This document shows positions 4,699 to 31,266 of a stretch of 64,000 bases of DNA, in pieces; the first letter of the stretch is position 1; each line of letters begins with the position of its first letter. Below the pieces are notes generated by a model, which ran no database searches, was not told the origin of the DNA, and worked only from the letters and a program-made list of their open reading frames with translations. The translations under genes were made by a program, and so were the position numbers. This DNA comes from Syntrophus aciditrophicus SB. GTDB taxonomy: Bacteria; Desulfobacterota; Syntrophia; Syntrophales; Syntrophaceae. Location of the stretch: the NCBI RefSeq assembly GCF_000013405.1, contig NC_007759.1, forward strand, positions 248,001 to 312,000, in the 5' to 3' direction.

Positions 4699-4893
4699 TC
4701 ATTCATCATCTTTCCGCATGGCCAGCGGCAGAGAAAACAGACCGATAATGACCAGGGTGTAGCCGCCGATTTTAATTGCAAGGCGGAGGGCGCCGGGGGG
4801 ATATTCCGGGGCGAGGAGCCGCACCAGAGCGACCCCCGACAACGCGATGCATGTTCCAATAACCCACCACCACTGGCGTTTCTGCTTGAACAT
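4699..4893 (-). CDS. small two-helix membrane protein (cassette 2)
   Basis: A 64-residue protein starting MFKQKRQWWWVIGTCIALSG, with two predicted membrane helices and a charged tail (AMRKDDE). It is a paralog of the protein at 1696-1887. Its start overlaps the beta-subunit stop by one base (TAATG), so translation is probably coupled to that gene. Its retention after both beta genes argues for a functional link with the pump. No characterised family is recognised. Confidence 0.75.
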   Translation of the reverse strand: MFKQKRQWWWVIGTCIALSGVALVRLLAPEYPPGALRLAIKIGGYTLVIIGLFSLPLAMRKDDE

Positions 4894-6095
4894 TACTTCA
4901 GCAGGGTGCAGTAAATACCGGCCAGAATCGCCGTCGTGATAACGCCGCTGACGTTGGCGCCAAGGGCAAGCGGCATGATCATCGCGCGGGGATTAGCCTT
5001 GAAAACCACCTTCTGCGCCACTTTGGCAGTGGTCGGCACACAGGAAACCCCGGCAATTCCGATGACCGGGTTATACTTTTTCCCGCTGAAGTAATACAGG
5101 AGAATCCCGCCGATAAGACCGCCAACTCCTGACAACATCAGTGCCGTGGAACCGAGGATCAGGATTTTCAGGACAACTGGATTGAGAATGGTGCCGGCCT
5201 CGCAGAGAACACCGAGGAGCAGGCCCAGGAAGAAGGTTGCGCAGTAGAGCACCGTGGTCTCAACAAATTCAATATAAGGCTTGATGCCCGCTTCCCGGAT
5301 TACAATGCCAAGGAAAAAGGACACGAAGAGCGGTCCGGCAACAGGAAACAGCAGGCAGAGGATGGTGACGGTAATCGTAGAAAACATGATTTTTTGCAGA
5401 GGTGTAATCTGGGGCATGCCTCTGAGATCCATTTGAATGGCCTGCATTTTTTTGGGAATCAAAGCCTTGATCAGATAGGGATACAAACCGTAGCAGAGGC
5501 TGAGATAAAGATAGGCCACAATGCCGATGGGAACGAAAAGGTGCGGGGACAGCATCAGGGAGGTGAACAGCACCATGGGGCCGTCGGCGCCGCCAACGAT
5601 GGCTGTTGCCGCCGCTTCCTGGGGGGTCATGCCGAAGGCCACGGCCAGCGGGAAGACGGTAACCGAACCCAACTCTCCCCAGAGCGCGAGGAACATGCTG
5701 CTGAAGGGGCGTGCCAGCACAAAGCCGATGTCGCACAATACACCGATGCCGATGAAAACGAGGCAGGCGATCAATCCGTTGGTGAAGCTCAATGTGTAGA
5801 TGGGCTGGAGCCAGTTGATCTGTAAAATATTGACCAGGGCCGAGGGATCTGTAATCAGGGGATCAAGAAAAATGGTTCCCGTTTTGCCGTCGGGAAAAAA
5901 TAAAACGGATGCATTGACCGTTGCCATCCCCAGGCCCATGGGGATCATGATGAGGGCTTCCAGAATTCCCTTGTAGCCAAGATAAACGAAGGATATTCCC
6001 AGAAGCATCAATACGATGCGGGCAACTGCAAATGTCGGGTCCTGCCCGACCAGCGTGGCAATACCTTGAAACAGCGATAATATATCAAAATTCAT
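4893..6095 (-). CDS. Sodium-pump decarboxylase beta subunit (cassette 2)
   Basis: A polytopic membrane protein of about 400 residues in the OadB/GcdB family. ATG at 6095 was chosen because GGAG lies 8 nt upstream; an upstream TTG at 6113 is less likely. It keeps GVLCDIG (conserved Asp), GGADGPMVLF, NPVIGIAGVSCVPTTAK and LGANVSG. Compared with the first paralog, the loop holding the biotinyl-like insert has different sequence (FFPDGKTGTIFLDP), and the Arg of the VPxxAR motif is Lys. The probable gamma gene upstream is now separated from it by an insertion sequence, which may disturb expression. Substrate unknown. Confidence 0.85.
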   Translation of the reverse strand: MNFDILSLFQGIATLVGQDPTFAVARIVLMLLGISFVYLGYKGILEALIMIPMGLGMATVNASVLFFPDGKTGTIFLDPLITDPSALVNILQINWLQPIYTLSFTNGLIACLVFIGIGVLCDIGFVLARPFSSMFLALWGELGSVTVFPLAVAFGMTPQEAAATAIVGGADGPMVLFTSLMLSPHLFVPIGIVAYLYLSLCYGLYPYLIKALIPKKMQAIQMDLRGMPQITPLQKIMFSTITVTILCLLFPVAGPLFVSFFLGIVIREAGIKPYIEFVETTVLYCATFFLGLLLGVLCEAGTILNPVVLKILILGSTALMLSGVGGLIGGILLYYFSGKKYNPVIGIAGVSCVPTTAKVAQKVVFKANPRAMIMPLALGANVSGVITTAILAGIYCTLLK

Positions 6096-24563: not shown

Positions 24564-25538
24564 TTAAAGATCCCGATTCAGCACGAACTCCGAAACGGCG
24601 AACAGGGCCTCCTTCGCCGGCCCCTCAGGCAGACCGGCCAGAAAGGTTCTTCCCTCATCAATCAGGGTTTCGGCCTGATTCAGGGCGTCGGTAATGCCGT
24701 CATAGCGGGAGATCAGAGTCAGTATGTCACCGGCCGGCATTTCCCGCGTTCTTCTTTCAGCCAGGGCCGTCTCGATGAACTTCCTTTCCTCCGGAGTACA
24801 GCGCTTCAAGGTGTAAATCAGTGGCAGGGTCATCTTGCCTTCGTTGAGATCCTTGCCGATGACTTTTCCGAAATCTTCTTCCCGGGCAACGTAATCCAGC
24901 GTGTCGTCCGTCATCTGGAAAGCCGAGCCCAGCCGCAGCCCGAACTGCTTCAGGGCTTCGATCTGATGGACTTCGGCGCCACCCAGATAACCGCCCAGGG
25001 CGCAAGCCGCGGAGATGAGAATGGCGGTCTTTTTCTCAATAATTTTCAGATAATCCTCTTCCGTCAGGTTGACTTCTCCACATTTGATCAACTGAAAGAC
25101 CTCCCCTTCCGACATGACGTTGGAAGTGGTTGAAATGAGGTGCATGATCTCCATGCTGCCGTCCTCCGCCATAAGCTGGTAGGCCTTCGAATAAAGAAAA
25201 TCGCCGACCAGAACGACGGCGGCATTTCCCCAGATATTGTTGGCCGAAACTTTGCCTCGGCGGGATTCCGCCTTGTCGATGACATCGTCATGGAACAGAC
25301 TCGCGGTATGGATGAACTCGAGAACCGCGGAAAGCGTATGACAGCGTCTTCCCTGATAACCGAACAGGTCGGCGGATATCAGCAGCAGCAGTGGACGGAA
25401 GCGCTTGCCGCCGCTGCCCAGAAGGTGGGTGACAATTTCGGGGATGATGGCGACCTCGGAACGAAGATGAAATTCCATTTCCTCTTCAACGCGCTTCAGC
25501 TCCGCACCGTAACGGGAAAAAACATCCTGAATCTGCAT
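24564..25538 (-). CDS. Polyprenyl diphosphate synthase (IspB-like)
   Basis: A 324-residue trans-isoprenyl diphosphate synthase that extends farnesyl-type allylic diphosphates with isopentenyl diphosphate, probably for a quinone side chain. The first aspartate-rich motif is in LFHDDVIDKAESRRG, preceded by GGKRFRPLLLL. The second is in FQMTDDTLDY, followed by GKDLNEGKMTLPLI. The residues before the first motif (FIHTASL) resemble long-chain (C40-C50) enzymes; the exact product length is inference. ATG at 25538 follows CCAGGAG. Confidence 0.92.
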   Translation of the reverse strand: MQIQDVFSRYGAELKRVEEEMEFHLRSEVAIIPEIVTHLLGSGGKRFRPLLLLISADLFGYQGRRCHTLSAVLEFIHTASLFHDDVIDKAESRRGKVSANNIWGNAAVVLVGDFLYSKAYQLMAEDGSMEIMHLISTTSNVMSEGEVFQLIKCGEVNLTEEDYLKIIEKKTAILISAACALGGYLGGAEVHQIEALKQFGLRLGSAFQMTDDTLDYVAREEDFGKVIGKDLNEGKMTLPLIYTLKRCTPEERKFIETALAERRTREMPAGDILTLISRYDGITDALNQAETLIDEGRTFLAGLPEGPAKEALFAVSEFVLNRDL

Positions 25539-26983: not shown

Positions 26984-27838
26984 GTGACCGTGGCGATGCG
27001 TCCGGATATTCAGGAAAGTTCCGAGGAAAAAGCAGGGTGGAATGCCATCAGGCTGCTGTCCTGGCCGTTTGCCCAACTCGGAAGATCGGTGATCAGCTGG
27101 ATCAACAATTCCGGGGCTGCGGCCATCTTCCTACTGCTCGCTGCCCTGAAAATCTTCCGTCCCCGGCAGCTGATGAAGATCACTCAGCAGATCTATTATA
27201 TCGGGGCGCGTTCCACGATGATTATCATGCTGGTCGGGCTTTTTACCGGCATGGTCCTGGGGCTCCAGTCCTACCATGCCCTGGTTCAGGTGGGCGCGGA
27301 AGGGGCGCTCGGCACCCTCGTCGCCCTGTCGCTGATTCGGGAACTGGGCCCTGTTCTCACGGCGATCATGATAACCGCCAGGGCCGGTTCGGCGATAACA
27401 GCCCAGATCGGTATTGAACGCATCTCGGAGCAGATTGACGCTCTTGACACCATGCACATTGATCCATTGAGATACCTCATCAGCCCGAGAATCGCGGCGG
27501 CAATCATCAGTTTTCCCGTGCTTACGGCGCTCTTTGACCTCATCGGCATACTGGGCAGTTACATTTCCGGGGTCCTGATCATGGGAGCGAATGCCGGCAC
27601 CTTTTTTCATCGGGTTCAGTCCAGCGTGGAAATGTCGGATGTCAACGAGGGATTTATCAAGGCCATTGTTTTTGCTGTTATCGTTTCCACCGTCTGCTGT
27701 TATCAGGGCTATTTTGCCCACATGCGTCCGGACAGCCACGGGGCCAAGGCCGTCGGCCTCTCCACAACCTCGGCCGTTGTGCTTTCCTGCGTGCTGATTC
27801 TGGTATCGGATTACGTGGTCACTTCTCTTCTGATTTAG
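26984..27838 (+). CDS. mlaE: MlaE-type ABC transporter permease
   Basis: Permease of the Mla phospholipid-transport ABC complex in the inner membrane. It has about five hydrophobic segments and the MlaE signature around LIRELGPVLTAIMITARAGSAI, then EIDALDTM-like ISEQIDALDTMHIDPLRYL. GTG at 26984 is the longest start. GTG 26990 has better spacing to GGAG, and ATG 26996 is also possible. It is the first gene of mlaE-F-D-C-A. Confidence 0.93.
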   Translation: MTVAMRPDIQESSEEKAGWNAIRLLSWPFAQLGRSVISWINNSGAAAIFLLLAALKIFRPRQLMKITQQIYYIGARSTMIIMLVGLFTGMVLGLQSYHALVQVGAEGALGTLVALSLIRELGPVLTAIMITARAGSAITAQIGIERISEQIDALDTMHIDPLRYLISPRIAAAIISFPVLTALFDLIGILGSYISGVLIMGANAGTFFHRVQSSVEMSDVNEGFIKAIVFAVIVSTVCCYQGYFAHMRPDSHGAKAVGLSTTSAVVLSCVLILVSDYVVTSLLI

Positions 27839-27846
27839 AGGAGCTT

Positions 27847-29088
27847 ATGGATATACCATTGATTGAATTTCAGGACGTGACGAAACGCTTCGGAGACCGA
27901 ACCGTTCTGGACCGGGTCAACCTGAAGATCTATGAAGGGGAGGTCACAACCATCATCGGCCTCAGCGGCGGGGGGAAAAGCGTTCTTCTCAAGCATATCA
28001 TCGGTTTGCTCAAACCGGATGAAGGGACTATTCTTTTCCGGGGAAAGCCTCTGAACGGGATGTCCAAAAAAGAGAGGTATGCCGCCCTCGGGAGGATGAG
28101 TTACATGTTTCAGGACAATGCGCTTTTCGATTCCATGACCGTTTATGAAAATATTGCGCTGCCTCTCCAGGAGACGATGAACCTGAAAAAAAAGGAAATC
28201 GAGCGCCGGGTCATGGCGAGAATCGAACAGACGGAACTCATCGACGCTGTTCACAAGTATCCCTCCGAACTCTCAGGGGGCATGCAGAAACGAGTGGCCC
28301 TGGCGCGGGCGCTCGTCATCGATCCGCAGATCGTCCTGTTCGATGAACCTACTTCCGGTCAGGATCCCGTCCGGAAAAACGCGATTTTGAGCATGATTGC
28401 CCAGTATCAGAGAAAATTCGGATTTACAGCGGTTCTGGTGAGTCATGAAATTCCAGATGTATATTTTATTTCCAACCGGATTCTCGCTCTTTATGATCGA
28501 ACCATCGTTTTTCAGGGGACTGTGGAGGAGCTTGAAGATTTCGAGCACCCGTTCAAGGATGAAGTCATCCGCAGTCTGGAAGGGCTGCAGGAAGAGTTGA
28601 CGGGGCTGCGGTCCAAGCGGCAGTTCAAGGTCCTCTATCATGCGAATCTGAAACGCAGCGCATTGGGTGAGAGCTATACGGTCCTGGTTTTCACTCTGGA
28701 GGCTCTGGATGCCGTTATCACCGCTTTGGGTTACGATGCGGCGCAAAAGACGATTCATTACATGGGATTGTTTATTGATAAACACTTTGCTCCCATCGGG
28801 GGCTTTTCCACCCGTATCAGTTTTAACGAATTTGTGACCATGCTTCCCTATTCGGATCGGGCTGAGGCAGAGGCCATTGTGAAGGATTTTATCCCCGATC
28901 TGCAGGAAGGAATCCGTCAAATCCAGGAGGGAACAAGGAGGAAGGCGACTTCCGGAGAATGCATCGAATTTGTCGTTCATGCCGGACTGGCCCAGGGGAA
29001 CCCTCTGGAAGAAATAGATTCCGTCATCGAGTCCGCAAAGCGTCAACAAAAAGAAATTGGCCGACTACAGTGCGCCACGCAGGAGTGA
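27847..29088 (+). CDS. mlaF: MlaF-type ABC ATPase with C-terminal degenerate GGDEF-like domain
   Basis: Residues 1-250 are a normal Mla ATPase: Walker A GLSGGGKS, Q-loop FQDNALFDSMTVYEN, signature LSGGMQKR, Walker B VLFDEPTSGQDP and switch His in VSHEI. MlaF proteins usually end near residue 270; this one has 413. The extra part (about 258-405) follows the GGDEF pattern: LEALDAVITALGYDAAQKTI at the IDxFKxxND...GH..GD position, SFNEFVTMLPYSDRAEAEAI at the GGDEF loop, and VVHAGLA...EEIDSVIESAKRQQKEIGRL at the C-terminal helix. The catalytic GG and Asp are lost, so it should not make c-di-GMP. It follows mlaE by 8 nt and precedes mlaD. Confidence 0.93.
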   Translation: MDIPLIEFQDVTKRFGDRTVLDRVNLKIYEGEVTTIIGLSGGGKSVLLKHIIGLLKPDEGTILFRGKPLNGMSKKERYAALGRMSYMFQDNALFDSMTVYENIALPLQETMNLKKKEIERRVMARIEQTELIDAVHKYPSELSGGMQKRVALARALVIDPQIVLFDEPTSGQDPVRKNAILSMIAQYQRKFGFTAVLVSHEIPDVYFISNRILALYDRTIVFQGTVEELEDFEHPFKDEVIRSLEGLQEELTGLRSKRQFKVLYHANLKRSALGESYTVLVFTLEALDAVITALGYDAAQKTIHYMGLFIDKHFAPIGGFSTRISFNEFVTMLPYSDRAEAEAIVKDFIPDLQEGIRQIQEGTRRKATSGECIEFVVHAGLAQGNPLEEIDSVIESAKRQQKEIGRLQCATQE

Positions 29089-29092
29089 ATTC

Positions 29093-29575
29093 ATGAAAAA
29101 GTACGCCATGGAAACAACGGTAGGCATCTTTCTCGCTGTCGGAATTATCCTGATCGGGTACATGACCGTGAAACTCGGTCATGTCTCCCTTTTCGGCGAT
29201 GACACCTATAAATTGTCTGCCCGCTTTACCTCGGTGTCCGGTCTGCGGTCAGGCAGTCCTGTGAATATGCTGGGCATCGAAATCGGCAGGGTGGAAAAGC
29301 TTGCCATAGACCAGCAGGATCTGCGGGCTGTCGTGGAAATGAGTATCAGGAAGGACATCAAGATCTATGACGACGCTATTGCCTCCATCAAAACGGAAGG
29401 ACTCATCGGTGACAAATATCTCAGCATCGATCCGGGGGGCGGCGGAGATCCTCTTCAGCCGGGCGGGACAATTACGGAAACGCAGCCGGCGCTGGATATC
29501 GAGAACCTCGTCAGCAAGTACGCCTTCGGAGAGGTAAAAAAAGCGGACAGTACGGATAATACAGACAAAAAATAA
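29093..29575 (+). CDS. mlaD: MlaD-type MCE-domain protein
   Basis: A 160-residue periplasmic protein with an N-terminal membrane anchor (about 9-26, VGIFLAVGIILIGYMTV) and one MCE domain (about 38-118: ARFTSVSGLRSGSPVNMLGIEIGRV, IKTEGLIGDKYLSIDPG). It forms the hexameric lipid-binding ring of the Mla complex. ATG at 29093 has AGGAG upstream; its start lies just after the mlaF stop. Confidence 0.94.
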   Translation: MKKYAMETTVGIFLAVGIILIGYMTVKLGHVSLFGDDTYKLSARFTSVSGLRSGSPVNMLGIEIGRVEKLAIDQQDLRAVVEMSIRKDIKIYDDAIASIKTEGLIGDKYLSIDPGGGGDPLQPGGTITETQPALDIENLVSKYAFGEVKKADSTDNTDKK

Positions 29576-29587
29576 AAAGGATGAATT

Positions 29588-30184
29588 ATGAAGAGACTGT
29601 TCATGAACGTTATTTTCCTGTTGCTTCTGCTGTTGCCTTCATCTGTATTTGCCGGTGTGCCTCTGGATACGGTTCAGGTCAATGTGAACAAGGTGCTTGA
29701 GGTTCTGCGCGATCCGGCACTCAAGCCGGCGTCAGCCAAAACGGTAAAAAAAGAGAAACTCCGGGTGATCTACGAGCGCATGTTCGATGAGGTCGAACTG
29801 TCCCGGCGCGCCCTGGCGAGACACTGGAACAGCCTCAACGCCGCTCAGCGTCAGGAATTCGTTCATCTCTTCCGGCAGGTGCTGGAGAATGCCTACATCG
29901 ACAAAATCCTGTCCTATACGAATGAGAAAATTGTTTTTGACAGAGAGAGAATGCTGTCGGCAAACCAGGCCGAGGTTACGACGAGAATTGTGACGTCTTC
30001 CAAGACGATTCCCATCACCTACCGGGTCATTCAGAAGGGAGGCATCTGGAAGGTCTATGACGTCGTTGTGGAGAACGTCAGTCTGATCCAGAATTACCGT
30101 ACGCAGTTCAATGAAATCCTGAACGGTCAGAAGCCCGAACAACTGCTTCAGACCCTCAGGAAAAAGGTGAAGGAACAGCAGTAA
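29588..30184 (+). CDS. mlaC: MlaC-type periplasmic phospholipid carrier
   Basis: A 198-residue secreted protein with signal peptide MKRLFMNVIFLLLLLLPSSV ending near FAG. The body matches the Ttg2D/MlaC family (FDEVELSRRALARHWNSLN, FVHLFRQVLENAYIDKILSY, VYDVVVENVSLIQNYRTQFN). It ferries phospholipids between outer and inner membrane. AAAGGA ribosome site; 12 nt after mlaD. Confidence 0.93.
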   Translation: MKRLFMNVIFLLLLLLPSSVFAGVPLDTVQVNVNKVLEVLRDPALKPASAKTVKKEKLRVIYERMFDEVELSRRALARHWNSLNAAQRQEFVHLFRQVLENAYIDKILSYTNEKIVFDRERMLSANQAEVTTRIVTSSKTIPITYRVIQKGGIWKVYDVVVENVSLIQNYRTQFNEILNGQKPEQLLQTLRKKVKEQQ

Positions 30185-30216: not shown

Positions 30217-31266
30217 ATGAAAAAGCTCCGCTTATCCGTTTTTTTTCTTCTTGTCCTTAGCATTGTTGCGGGTTCCGCCGATCGATCGGATGCTTCGATT
30301 TTCCCGGCGGGAACTGTGGCGCCCTTACAGCAGGGGATTGCAGGAGAATCCATTCATGAAGCCCCTGTTGTTCGGGGATTGCCGGAAATGTCTGCAACGC
30401 CCGGGCCGATGCATGTCCAAGGCATGCAGATTTGCGCTGCCGCAGCCGTAAGGACTGAAGAGAAGGCAGAAGGAGACGAAGAAGCCGGGAACGTTTCCGA
30501 CCCGATGGAATCCCTTAATGCGCCGGAGGCGGAAGGTGCAGAGGAAACAGATGTTTCCGATGACCTGGAATCGGACTATCTGCCGGAAGAAGGTGAGGAG
30601 CAGCCGACAGTAACGATCTCCGATCCCCTGGAGCCCTTCAACCGGGCCATGTATCATTTCAACGACAAGCTTTATTTCTGGCTGCTCAAGCCCGTGGGCC
30701 AGGCCTATGGCAAGGTTGTACCCGAGCCGGCGCGGATCAGTGTCCGGAATTTCTTTTCCAATCTGGCCTTTCCGTTCCGATTTCTAAGCTGCCTGCTGCA
30801 GGCGGATTTCCGCGGCGTTGCCACGGAAACAGGCCGTTTCACCGTCAACACAATCTGGGGTATCGGAGGTTTTCTGGATGCGTCATCGAGCAGGGAGTTG
30901 AATATCCCGAAACAGGATGTGGATCTGGGGCAGACCCTCGGTGTTTACGGTGTGGGGCATGGGTTTTATTTCGTCTGGCCGGTATTCGGTCCTTCCAGTC
31001 TGCGGGATTCCGCAGACATCGTGGGTGGATTTTTCCTCGATCCCGTTAATTATCTGAATCCCTGGTACACGCCGGCGGCCGTTCATGGATATGAAGCGGT
31101 AAACGAGACCTCCCTGACTATAGGGGATTATGAGGCGCTCAAGGGAGCGGCCATCGATCCTTATGTCTCCATCCGGGATGCCTTTGTCCAGTACCGGAAG
31201 AAGAAGATTGACGCCCGGAAGGTCAAGATGGAACATTCTGGATCGGTGGAAACGCAGAAAAAATGA
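30217..31266 (+). CDS. mlaA: MlaA/VacJ family protein with acidic repeat insert
   Basis: A 349-residue outer-membrane component of the Mla pathway. The MlaA domain starts near 135 (SDPLEPFNRAMYHFND) and continues with RISVRNFFSNLAFPFRF, RFTVNTIWGIGGFLD, GQTLGVYGVGHGFYFVWPVFGPS (in part) and DPVNYLNPWY. The signal sequence (1-26) has no lipobox cysteine, whereas MlaA is normally a lipoprotein. Between signal and domain is a 108-residue linker. Its acidic part repeats the motif SDPMES (94), SDDLES (114), SDPLEP (135). Confidence 0.93.
   Translation: MKKLRLSVFFLLVLSIVAGSADRSDASIFPAGTVAPLQQGIAGESIHEAPVVRGLPEMSATPGPMHVQGMQICAAAAVRTEEKAEGDEEAGNVSDPMESLNAPEAEGAEETDVSDDLESDYLPEEGEEQPTVTISDPLEPFNRAMYHFNDKLYFWLLKPVGQAYGKVVPEPARISVRNFFSNLAFPFRFLSCLLQADFRGVATETGRFTVNTIWGIGGFLDASSSRELNIPKQDVDLGQTLGVYGVGHGFYFVWPVFGPSSLRDSADIVGGFFLDPVNYLNPWYTPAAVHGYEAVNETSLTIGDYEALKGAAIDPYVSIRDAFVQYRKKKIDARKVKMEHSGSVETQKK

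Follow-up and report, generated by a model that had tools for sequence, protein, structure and literature searches.

The 64-kb window (the whole stretch of Syntrophus aciditrophicus SB DNA analysed here) harbours an mla operon, the genes of which are tightly packed on one strand in the order mlaE-F-D-C-A, according to a Pfam search of the window ORFs. Its second gene was re-derived as an ORF at 27847–29088 (+) encoding an MlaF of 413 residues, the length already given in the preliminary description of the locus. The protein is composed of two domains: an ABC ATPase, which is complete, and, C-terminal to it, a GGDEF-fold domain (residues ~243–408), hereafter the tail. The features of the operon are:

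26984..27838, forward strand: mlaE, permease, 284 aa (PF02405, 1.2e-75)
27847..29088, forward strand: mlaF with GGDEF-like tail, 413 aa (full-length profile A5 matched end to end, E 2.8e-202)
27859..28539, forward strand: ABC ATPase domain of MlaF, residues 5–231 (PF00005, 9.3e-35)
29093..29575, forward strand: mlaD, MCE protein, 160 aa counted from ATG (PF02470, 3.4e-21)
29588..30184, forward strand: mlaC, periplasmic carrier (PF05494, 4.7e-46)
30217..31266, forward strand: mlaA, outer-membrane lipoprotein with a long N-terminal extension (PF04333, 2.6e-66)

The ABC motifs are intact in the window MlaF (GLSGGGKS, LSGGMQKR, VLFDEPTSGQD and H200), and its signature, LSGGMQKR, features the Met typical of Mla-type ATPases, LSGGM being the usual signature of Mla- and TGD-like ATPases (PMC7367683). 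The solved chains nearest to this ABC domain are MlaF proteins (4.4e-53 to 1.9e-51) and, as befits an MlaF, the gene is encoded with mlaE and mlaD, mlaC and mlaA being adjacent as well. Near the operon, a polyprenyl-diphosphate-synthase-like gene (window 24564–25538, reverse strand) was called by eye; ispB is likewise found near the mla operon in E. coli K-12.

The tail and its landmarks are listed below; residue counts were made on 81 tails, with positions mapped via alignment to the intact GGDEF domains that this genome encodes.

28573..29070, forward strand: degenerate GGDEF-fold domain, residues 243–408 (Pfam searches of relatives, profile–profile and fold searches, AlphaFold2)
28549..28596, forward strand: predicted connecting helix, residues 235–250 (model of modest confidence, pLDDT ~63–71)
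28597..28608, forward strand: LTGL, residues 251–254, counterpart of the GGDEF-domain start DxLTGLxNRR (L in 79/81, T in 76/81 and G in 79/81 tails)
28693..28695, forward strand: T283, in the place of the metal-binding Asp (T in 40/81 and S in 18/81 tails)
28783..28815, forward strand: HFAPIGGFSTR, residues 313–323, rebuilt loop where the I-site (RxxD) used to be, conserved within the Syntrophia-type group and among the best-conserved parts of the tail
28819..28833, forward strand: SFNEF, residues 325–329, remnant of the GG(D/E)EF hairpin (N at position 3 in 50/81 and E at position 4 in 57/81 tails)

Taken alone, the window tail has no match in Pfam, even at E ≤ 10, and standard Pfam annotation misses the domain in this species. 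Likewise, phmmer yields no significant match in the PDB, a family profile being needed, while NCBIfam returns weak matches to LapD (0.0011) and SiaD (0.0029), which are both GGDEF proteins. A profile of 30 tails does find GGDEF structures in the PDB (4wxo, E 6.5e-6), and PF00990 (GGDEF) is matched by 27 of the 30 relatives' tails (best 1.3e-9), the TOBE, CBS and ACT/NIL families being absent from the Pfam matches to these tails. In distant relatives, ABC_tran (1.7e-37) and GGDEF (1.3e-20) are recovered within one protein, far above the curated cut-off. Moreover, aligning 48 tails to six intact GGDEF domains from the same genome with hhalign gives a probability of 97.3 (E 1.6e-11, 140 columns).

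The AlphaFold2 model of the tail, computed from 48 sequences (pLDDT 79.8, pTM 0.78), displays the helix/strand order of GGDEF domains, and GGDEF-family proteins make up all 50 matches listed by Foldseek (best 2.8e-7) as well as all 50 rows listed by VIA-align (PleD best, Z 15.4, rmsd 3.2, 150 residues). For the full-length MlaF, the interdomain confidence is low (pTM 0.61; pLDDT ~63–71 near residues 231–260). Finally, the tail motifs follow one another in GGDEF order: LTGL (251–254), LGYDAAQ (294–300, for xGHxxGD), R323, SFNEF (325–329, for GGDEF), LPYS (333–336) and the closing G380/A397. Altogether, the identity of the tail as a GGDEF domain is strongly supported, both by fold and by sequence relationship. 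The preliminary description had recognised a GGDEF-like C-terminal region and suggested structure prediction as a check; the predicted fold and the motif order agree with it, but the start that it gave lies about 12 residues too late, the domain beginning with a helix from residue 243 (window 28573) and LTGL following at 251. A chance resemblance to GGDEF is ruled out by the combined fold and profile evidence. Regarding the fusion itself, the same fused ORF recurs across dozens of independent genomes, which rules out a misassembly or a frameshift and establishes it as genuine.

The tail was found in many relatives, as a survey proposed in the preliminary description was meant to determine; neither an unrelated predicted fold nor a lack of conservation, the two outcomes that it named as refuting, was thus observed. 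In a class-wide search, it was matched in 102 of 155 genomes, of which 92 strongly, the ten others (E about 4e-4 to 1e-2) being set aside because they resemble ordinary GGDEF proteins. Across a sample of the phylum Desulfobacterota, a full-length profile match extends to the tail end in 50 of 395 genomes, representing 19 families; among the remaining matches listed, nearly all end near profile position 245. Searching genome contigs with the single window protein returned no relatives, against 74 for an alignment-based search of the same contigs, the named ones being mostly Syntrophaceae and other Syntrophales MAGs. The Syntrophia-type tail retrieved Desulfobacterota-type records only, bar one MAG titled candidate division WOR-3 (DDXO01000077.1), whose tail is 45% identical to that of the window; misnaming, contamination or transfer might account for this record. 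In all tailed neighbourhoods read, mlaF lies beside mlaE and mlaD, with mlaC and mlaA usually next.

To follow the history of the fusion, a tree was computed from the ABC domain of 81 rows, the tail columns being left out. Tail presence changes five times on this tree, versus 25.7 times for shuffled labels. With midpoint rooting, these changes resolve into one gain and four losses, even though the root is not established and the well-supported branches force only two changes. The best fit is thus one early gain, followed by vertical inheritance and several losses. A recent loss, apparently a natural deletion, can be seen as well: in three species of one genus (G148, G152 and G153), MlaF ORFs of 289–291 residues, matching up to profile position 265–274, stop about 40 residues into the tail, while sister species keep the GGDEF domain. 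In the only such region read (G153), mlaD lies 43 bases downstream of the shortened mlaF. Since the tail was apparently lost in these three species and is absent from several other relatives, it is not indispensable, and such lineages offer natural comparisons of related species with and without it.

The catalytic residues of the tail are gone. As the preliminary description had noted, GG and the metal-binding Asp are missing from the window protein (S325–F326 and T283), which, with SFNEF for GG(D/E)EF, lacks the hallmarks of a diguanylate cyclase. The losses extend further, to the guanine-site Asp (Q300; Q in 65/81 tails), to the N of 'ND' (I291; mostly lost across tails) and to the I-site RxxD, which is absent from the window tail (AxxxG instead) and from the whole Syntrophia-type group. 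None of the 81 tails retains GG[DE]EF, and the metal Asp, the guanine Asp and the N of 'ND' are mostly gone, which is why cyclase activity was most likely lost before the tailed family radiated.

In the Syntrophia-type tail, two stretches are the most conserved: the helix/LTGL segment 243–256 (mean entropy about 0.6–0.7 bits) and the former I-site loop 312–323 (0.72 bits), in which F314, G318 and G319 reach 98%, and S321 and R323 100%. In contrast, the GGDEF hairpin is far more variable (1.47 bits). Drift has affected the active site, while another surface of the tail is maintained. Pairwise dN/dS, computed on 18 pairs, ranges from 0.04 to 0.42 for the tail, versus 0.02 to 0.12 for the ABC domain, and thus shows purifying selection on the tail, weaker than on the ATPase.

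At face value, the tail could be a decaying relic of little function, as its rate of evolution exceeds that of the ABC domain in all pairs for which the ratio is defined, and as some lineages have lost it. Yet its dN/dS is well below 1, it is present in 19 families and eight positions are invariant over 48 tails (S243, L251, F260, S321, R323, P334, G380 and A397), so that we regard a relic as very improbable.

Several c-di-GMP receptors are known to be degenerate GGDEF domains whose I-site is intact. The preliminary description had considered a coupling of lipid transport to c-di-GMP or GTP, whereby the tail would be a nucleotide sensor setting transport. Six tails of the basal group (L153–L156, L175 and L179) indeed keep RxxD at the canonical spacing before RYG, in the versions RPSD, RPND, RVFD, RITD, RLTD and RFTD, and the genome of S. 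aciditrophicus itself encodes six GGDEF proteins with an intact GG[DE]EF. For the window protein, however, this coupling is unsupported because its GTP site (broken at T283, I291, Q300 and S325–F326) and its RxxD are both gone, the latter throughout the Syntrophia-type group. Nucleotide sensing by the window protein is therefore unlikely and, taken as the general role of the tail, we hold it to be rather improbable; in the window species, the effector of the tail is probably neither c-di-GMP nor GTP.

The RxxD of several basal families raises a related scenario. A c-di-GMP receptor domain might have been fused early in this MlaF lineage, with the basal members still binding c-di-GMP at RxxD and the Syntrophia branch having rebuilt the site (FGxIGGFS[TA]R), either to accommodate another effector or to pair constitutively. 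We put this forward very tentatively; if true, basal members would tie outer-membrane lipid balance to c-di-GMP. Both tail types are found on one contig (L185), where about 3 kb separate two tailed mlaF genes (474–1685 and 4728–5972): one is basal, its I-site reading EITD, and the other belongs to the Syntrophia type.

Degenerate GGDEF domains also often work via protein contacts, and the conserved non-catalytic loop 312–323 could serve such contacts if the tail were a docking platform that recruits another protein, such as a regulator or a localisation factor, and did not pair with itself. Nevertheless, among the loci examined, no co-inherited partner gene was noticed, mlaE, mlaD, mlaC and mlaA being the genes that surround the tailed mlaF. 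In our opinion, docking has some plausibility but is doubtful.

Another proposal of the preliminary description was that the tail might replace MlaB, of which it had seen no gene. Our analyses agree on the absence: there is no mlaB/STAS ORF within the 64-kb window. Nor was any STAS domain found at 101 tailed mlaF loci (907 kb) or at 34 mostly tailless loci (262 kb), using a STAS profile that detects both E. coli MlaB and the STAS genes encoded in the S. aciditrophicus genome, though these were among its seeds. Elsewhere in this genome, STAS domains are encoded beside other genes or fused to the N-terminus of a different MlaE. This 381-residue STAS–MlaE fusion (L148:3312–4457, about C1:3159311–3160456) is located beside a tailless MlaF of 264 residues; together they form a second MCE system, whose permease carries the STAS module.

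As a functional replacement, the tail would contact MlaF on the face used by the STAS protein, an idea favoured by the fact that the operon is devoid of MlaB and that E. coli MlaF needs MlaB to stay in the complex (PMC7367683). Still, MlaB loss does not track the tail: STAS is absent from the tailed and the mostly tailless loci alike, which means that a missing mlaB is no sign of replacement by the tail, and in this genome STAS is instead fused to a different MlaE. The absence of MlaB is the norm for mlaF operons in this phylum, whether tailed or tailless, and most tailless MlaFs of the phylum manage without either tail or MlaB. We thus find no specific support for a replacement of MlaB, which we deem improbable. 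The better-supported half of the replacement idea concerns the short C-terminal handshake segment of E. coli MlaF, because the tail occupies the place of that segment.

Indeed, the window protein can be aligned with E. coli MlaF (269 aa) and with the tailless paralog as far as one shared helix, at which the tail starts; from that point, the window MlaF continues not with an E. coli-type short handshake but with a domain of about 165 residues, which the predicted models present as a folded domain fused C-terminal to the nucleotide-binding domain (NBD). GGDEF domains act as dimers. In E. coli, MlaF ends in a handshake of about 25 residues embracing the partner subunit; without this extension, the protein is non-functional, and a GCN4 dimerisation domain put there largely restores function (PMC7367683). 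In other ABC ATPases (MetN, ModC and MalK), the C-terminal domains are folded, associate with each other underneath the NBDs and control them (PMC7367683). It is from these observations together, i.e., the position of the tail at the handshake site, the GCN4 rescue, the self-association of ABC C-terminal domains and the dimeric nature of GGDEF domains, that we propose a built-in domain for pairing and regulation.

The two tails of an MlaF dimer would pair below the NBDs, in the manner of GGDEF domains and of the MetN regulatory domain, and the paired tails may stabilise or gate the closure of the ATPase dimer. The tail would do the job of the E. coli handshake in a phylum without MlaB, with the helix and LTGL leading out of the ATPase as a putative coupling element and the glycine-rich loop that took the place of the I-site as a candidate pairing or effector surface. 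Among its conceivable roles, the tail most likely serves in regulatory dimerisation, a role that MetN fulfils with a domain of another fold. To the complete proposal, in which a dead GGDEF domain stands in place of the short C-terminal extension and ensures NBD-dimer pairing or control, with an effector that is probably not c-di-GMP or GTP, we would give about an even chance. Within it, the computations establish the architecture, the fold, the dead sites, the distribution and the selection, while the pairing, the control of the ATPase and any effector are inferred.

On the cytoplasmic side, the regulation of Mla transport in E. coli involves both MlaB and the handshake segment. An entire clade of Mla systems may rely instead on a built-in GGDEF-fold domain; the regulatory C-terminal domains known from ABC ATPases are few, and this would give them one more fold. 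In basal members, a connection of c-di-GMP with the lipid asymmetry of the outer membrane is open to direct testing. The ABC C-terminal domain types described in PMC7367683 do not include GGDEF, and our search of the open-access literature returned no report of a GGDEF domain carried by MlaF or any other ABC ATPase. For the better-conserved members, Pfam-based listings should reveal the combination of ABC and GGDEF, which has therefore escaped description but not detection. We file the tail as a putative regulatory ABC C-terminal domain with a fold unreported for that role.

The window protein can be compared with four kinds of known systems. With E. coli MlaF (MlaFEDB; PDB 6xbd, 6xgy and 7cge), it shares the ABC domain, the LSGGM signature and the partner genes mlaE, mlaD and mlaC, whereas the E. 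coli protein has its extended handshake, a separate MlaB and no folded C-terminal domain, and the E. coli operon is devoid of mlaA. With the GGDEF domains of diguanylate cyclases (PleD, DgcB and SadC), the tail has in common the fold, the order of the elements, LTGL, GH, the R before GGDEF, LLP and the closing helix, but it has none of GG[DE]EF, the metal Asp, the guanine Asp and RxxD, and it sits on an ABC ATPase. Degenerate GGDEF effectors (such as LapD, FimX and PopA) resemble it as non-catalytic GGDEF folds in regulation, LapD being its best NCBIfam match; unlike them, the tail has neither an EAL partner nor an I-site and would regulate a transporter ATPase directly. Finally, the ferredoxin-like domain of MetN, the TOBE domains of ModC and MalK and the CBS domains of OpuA are, like the tail, folded, C-terminal to the NBD and thought to set NBD pairing, and what distinguishes the tail from all of them is its GGDEF fold.
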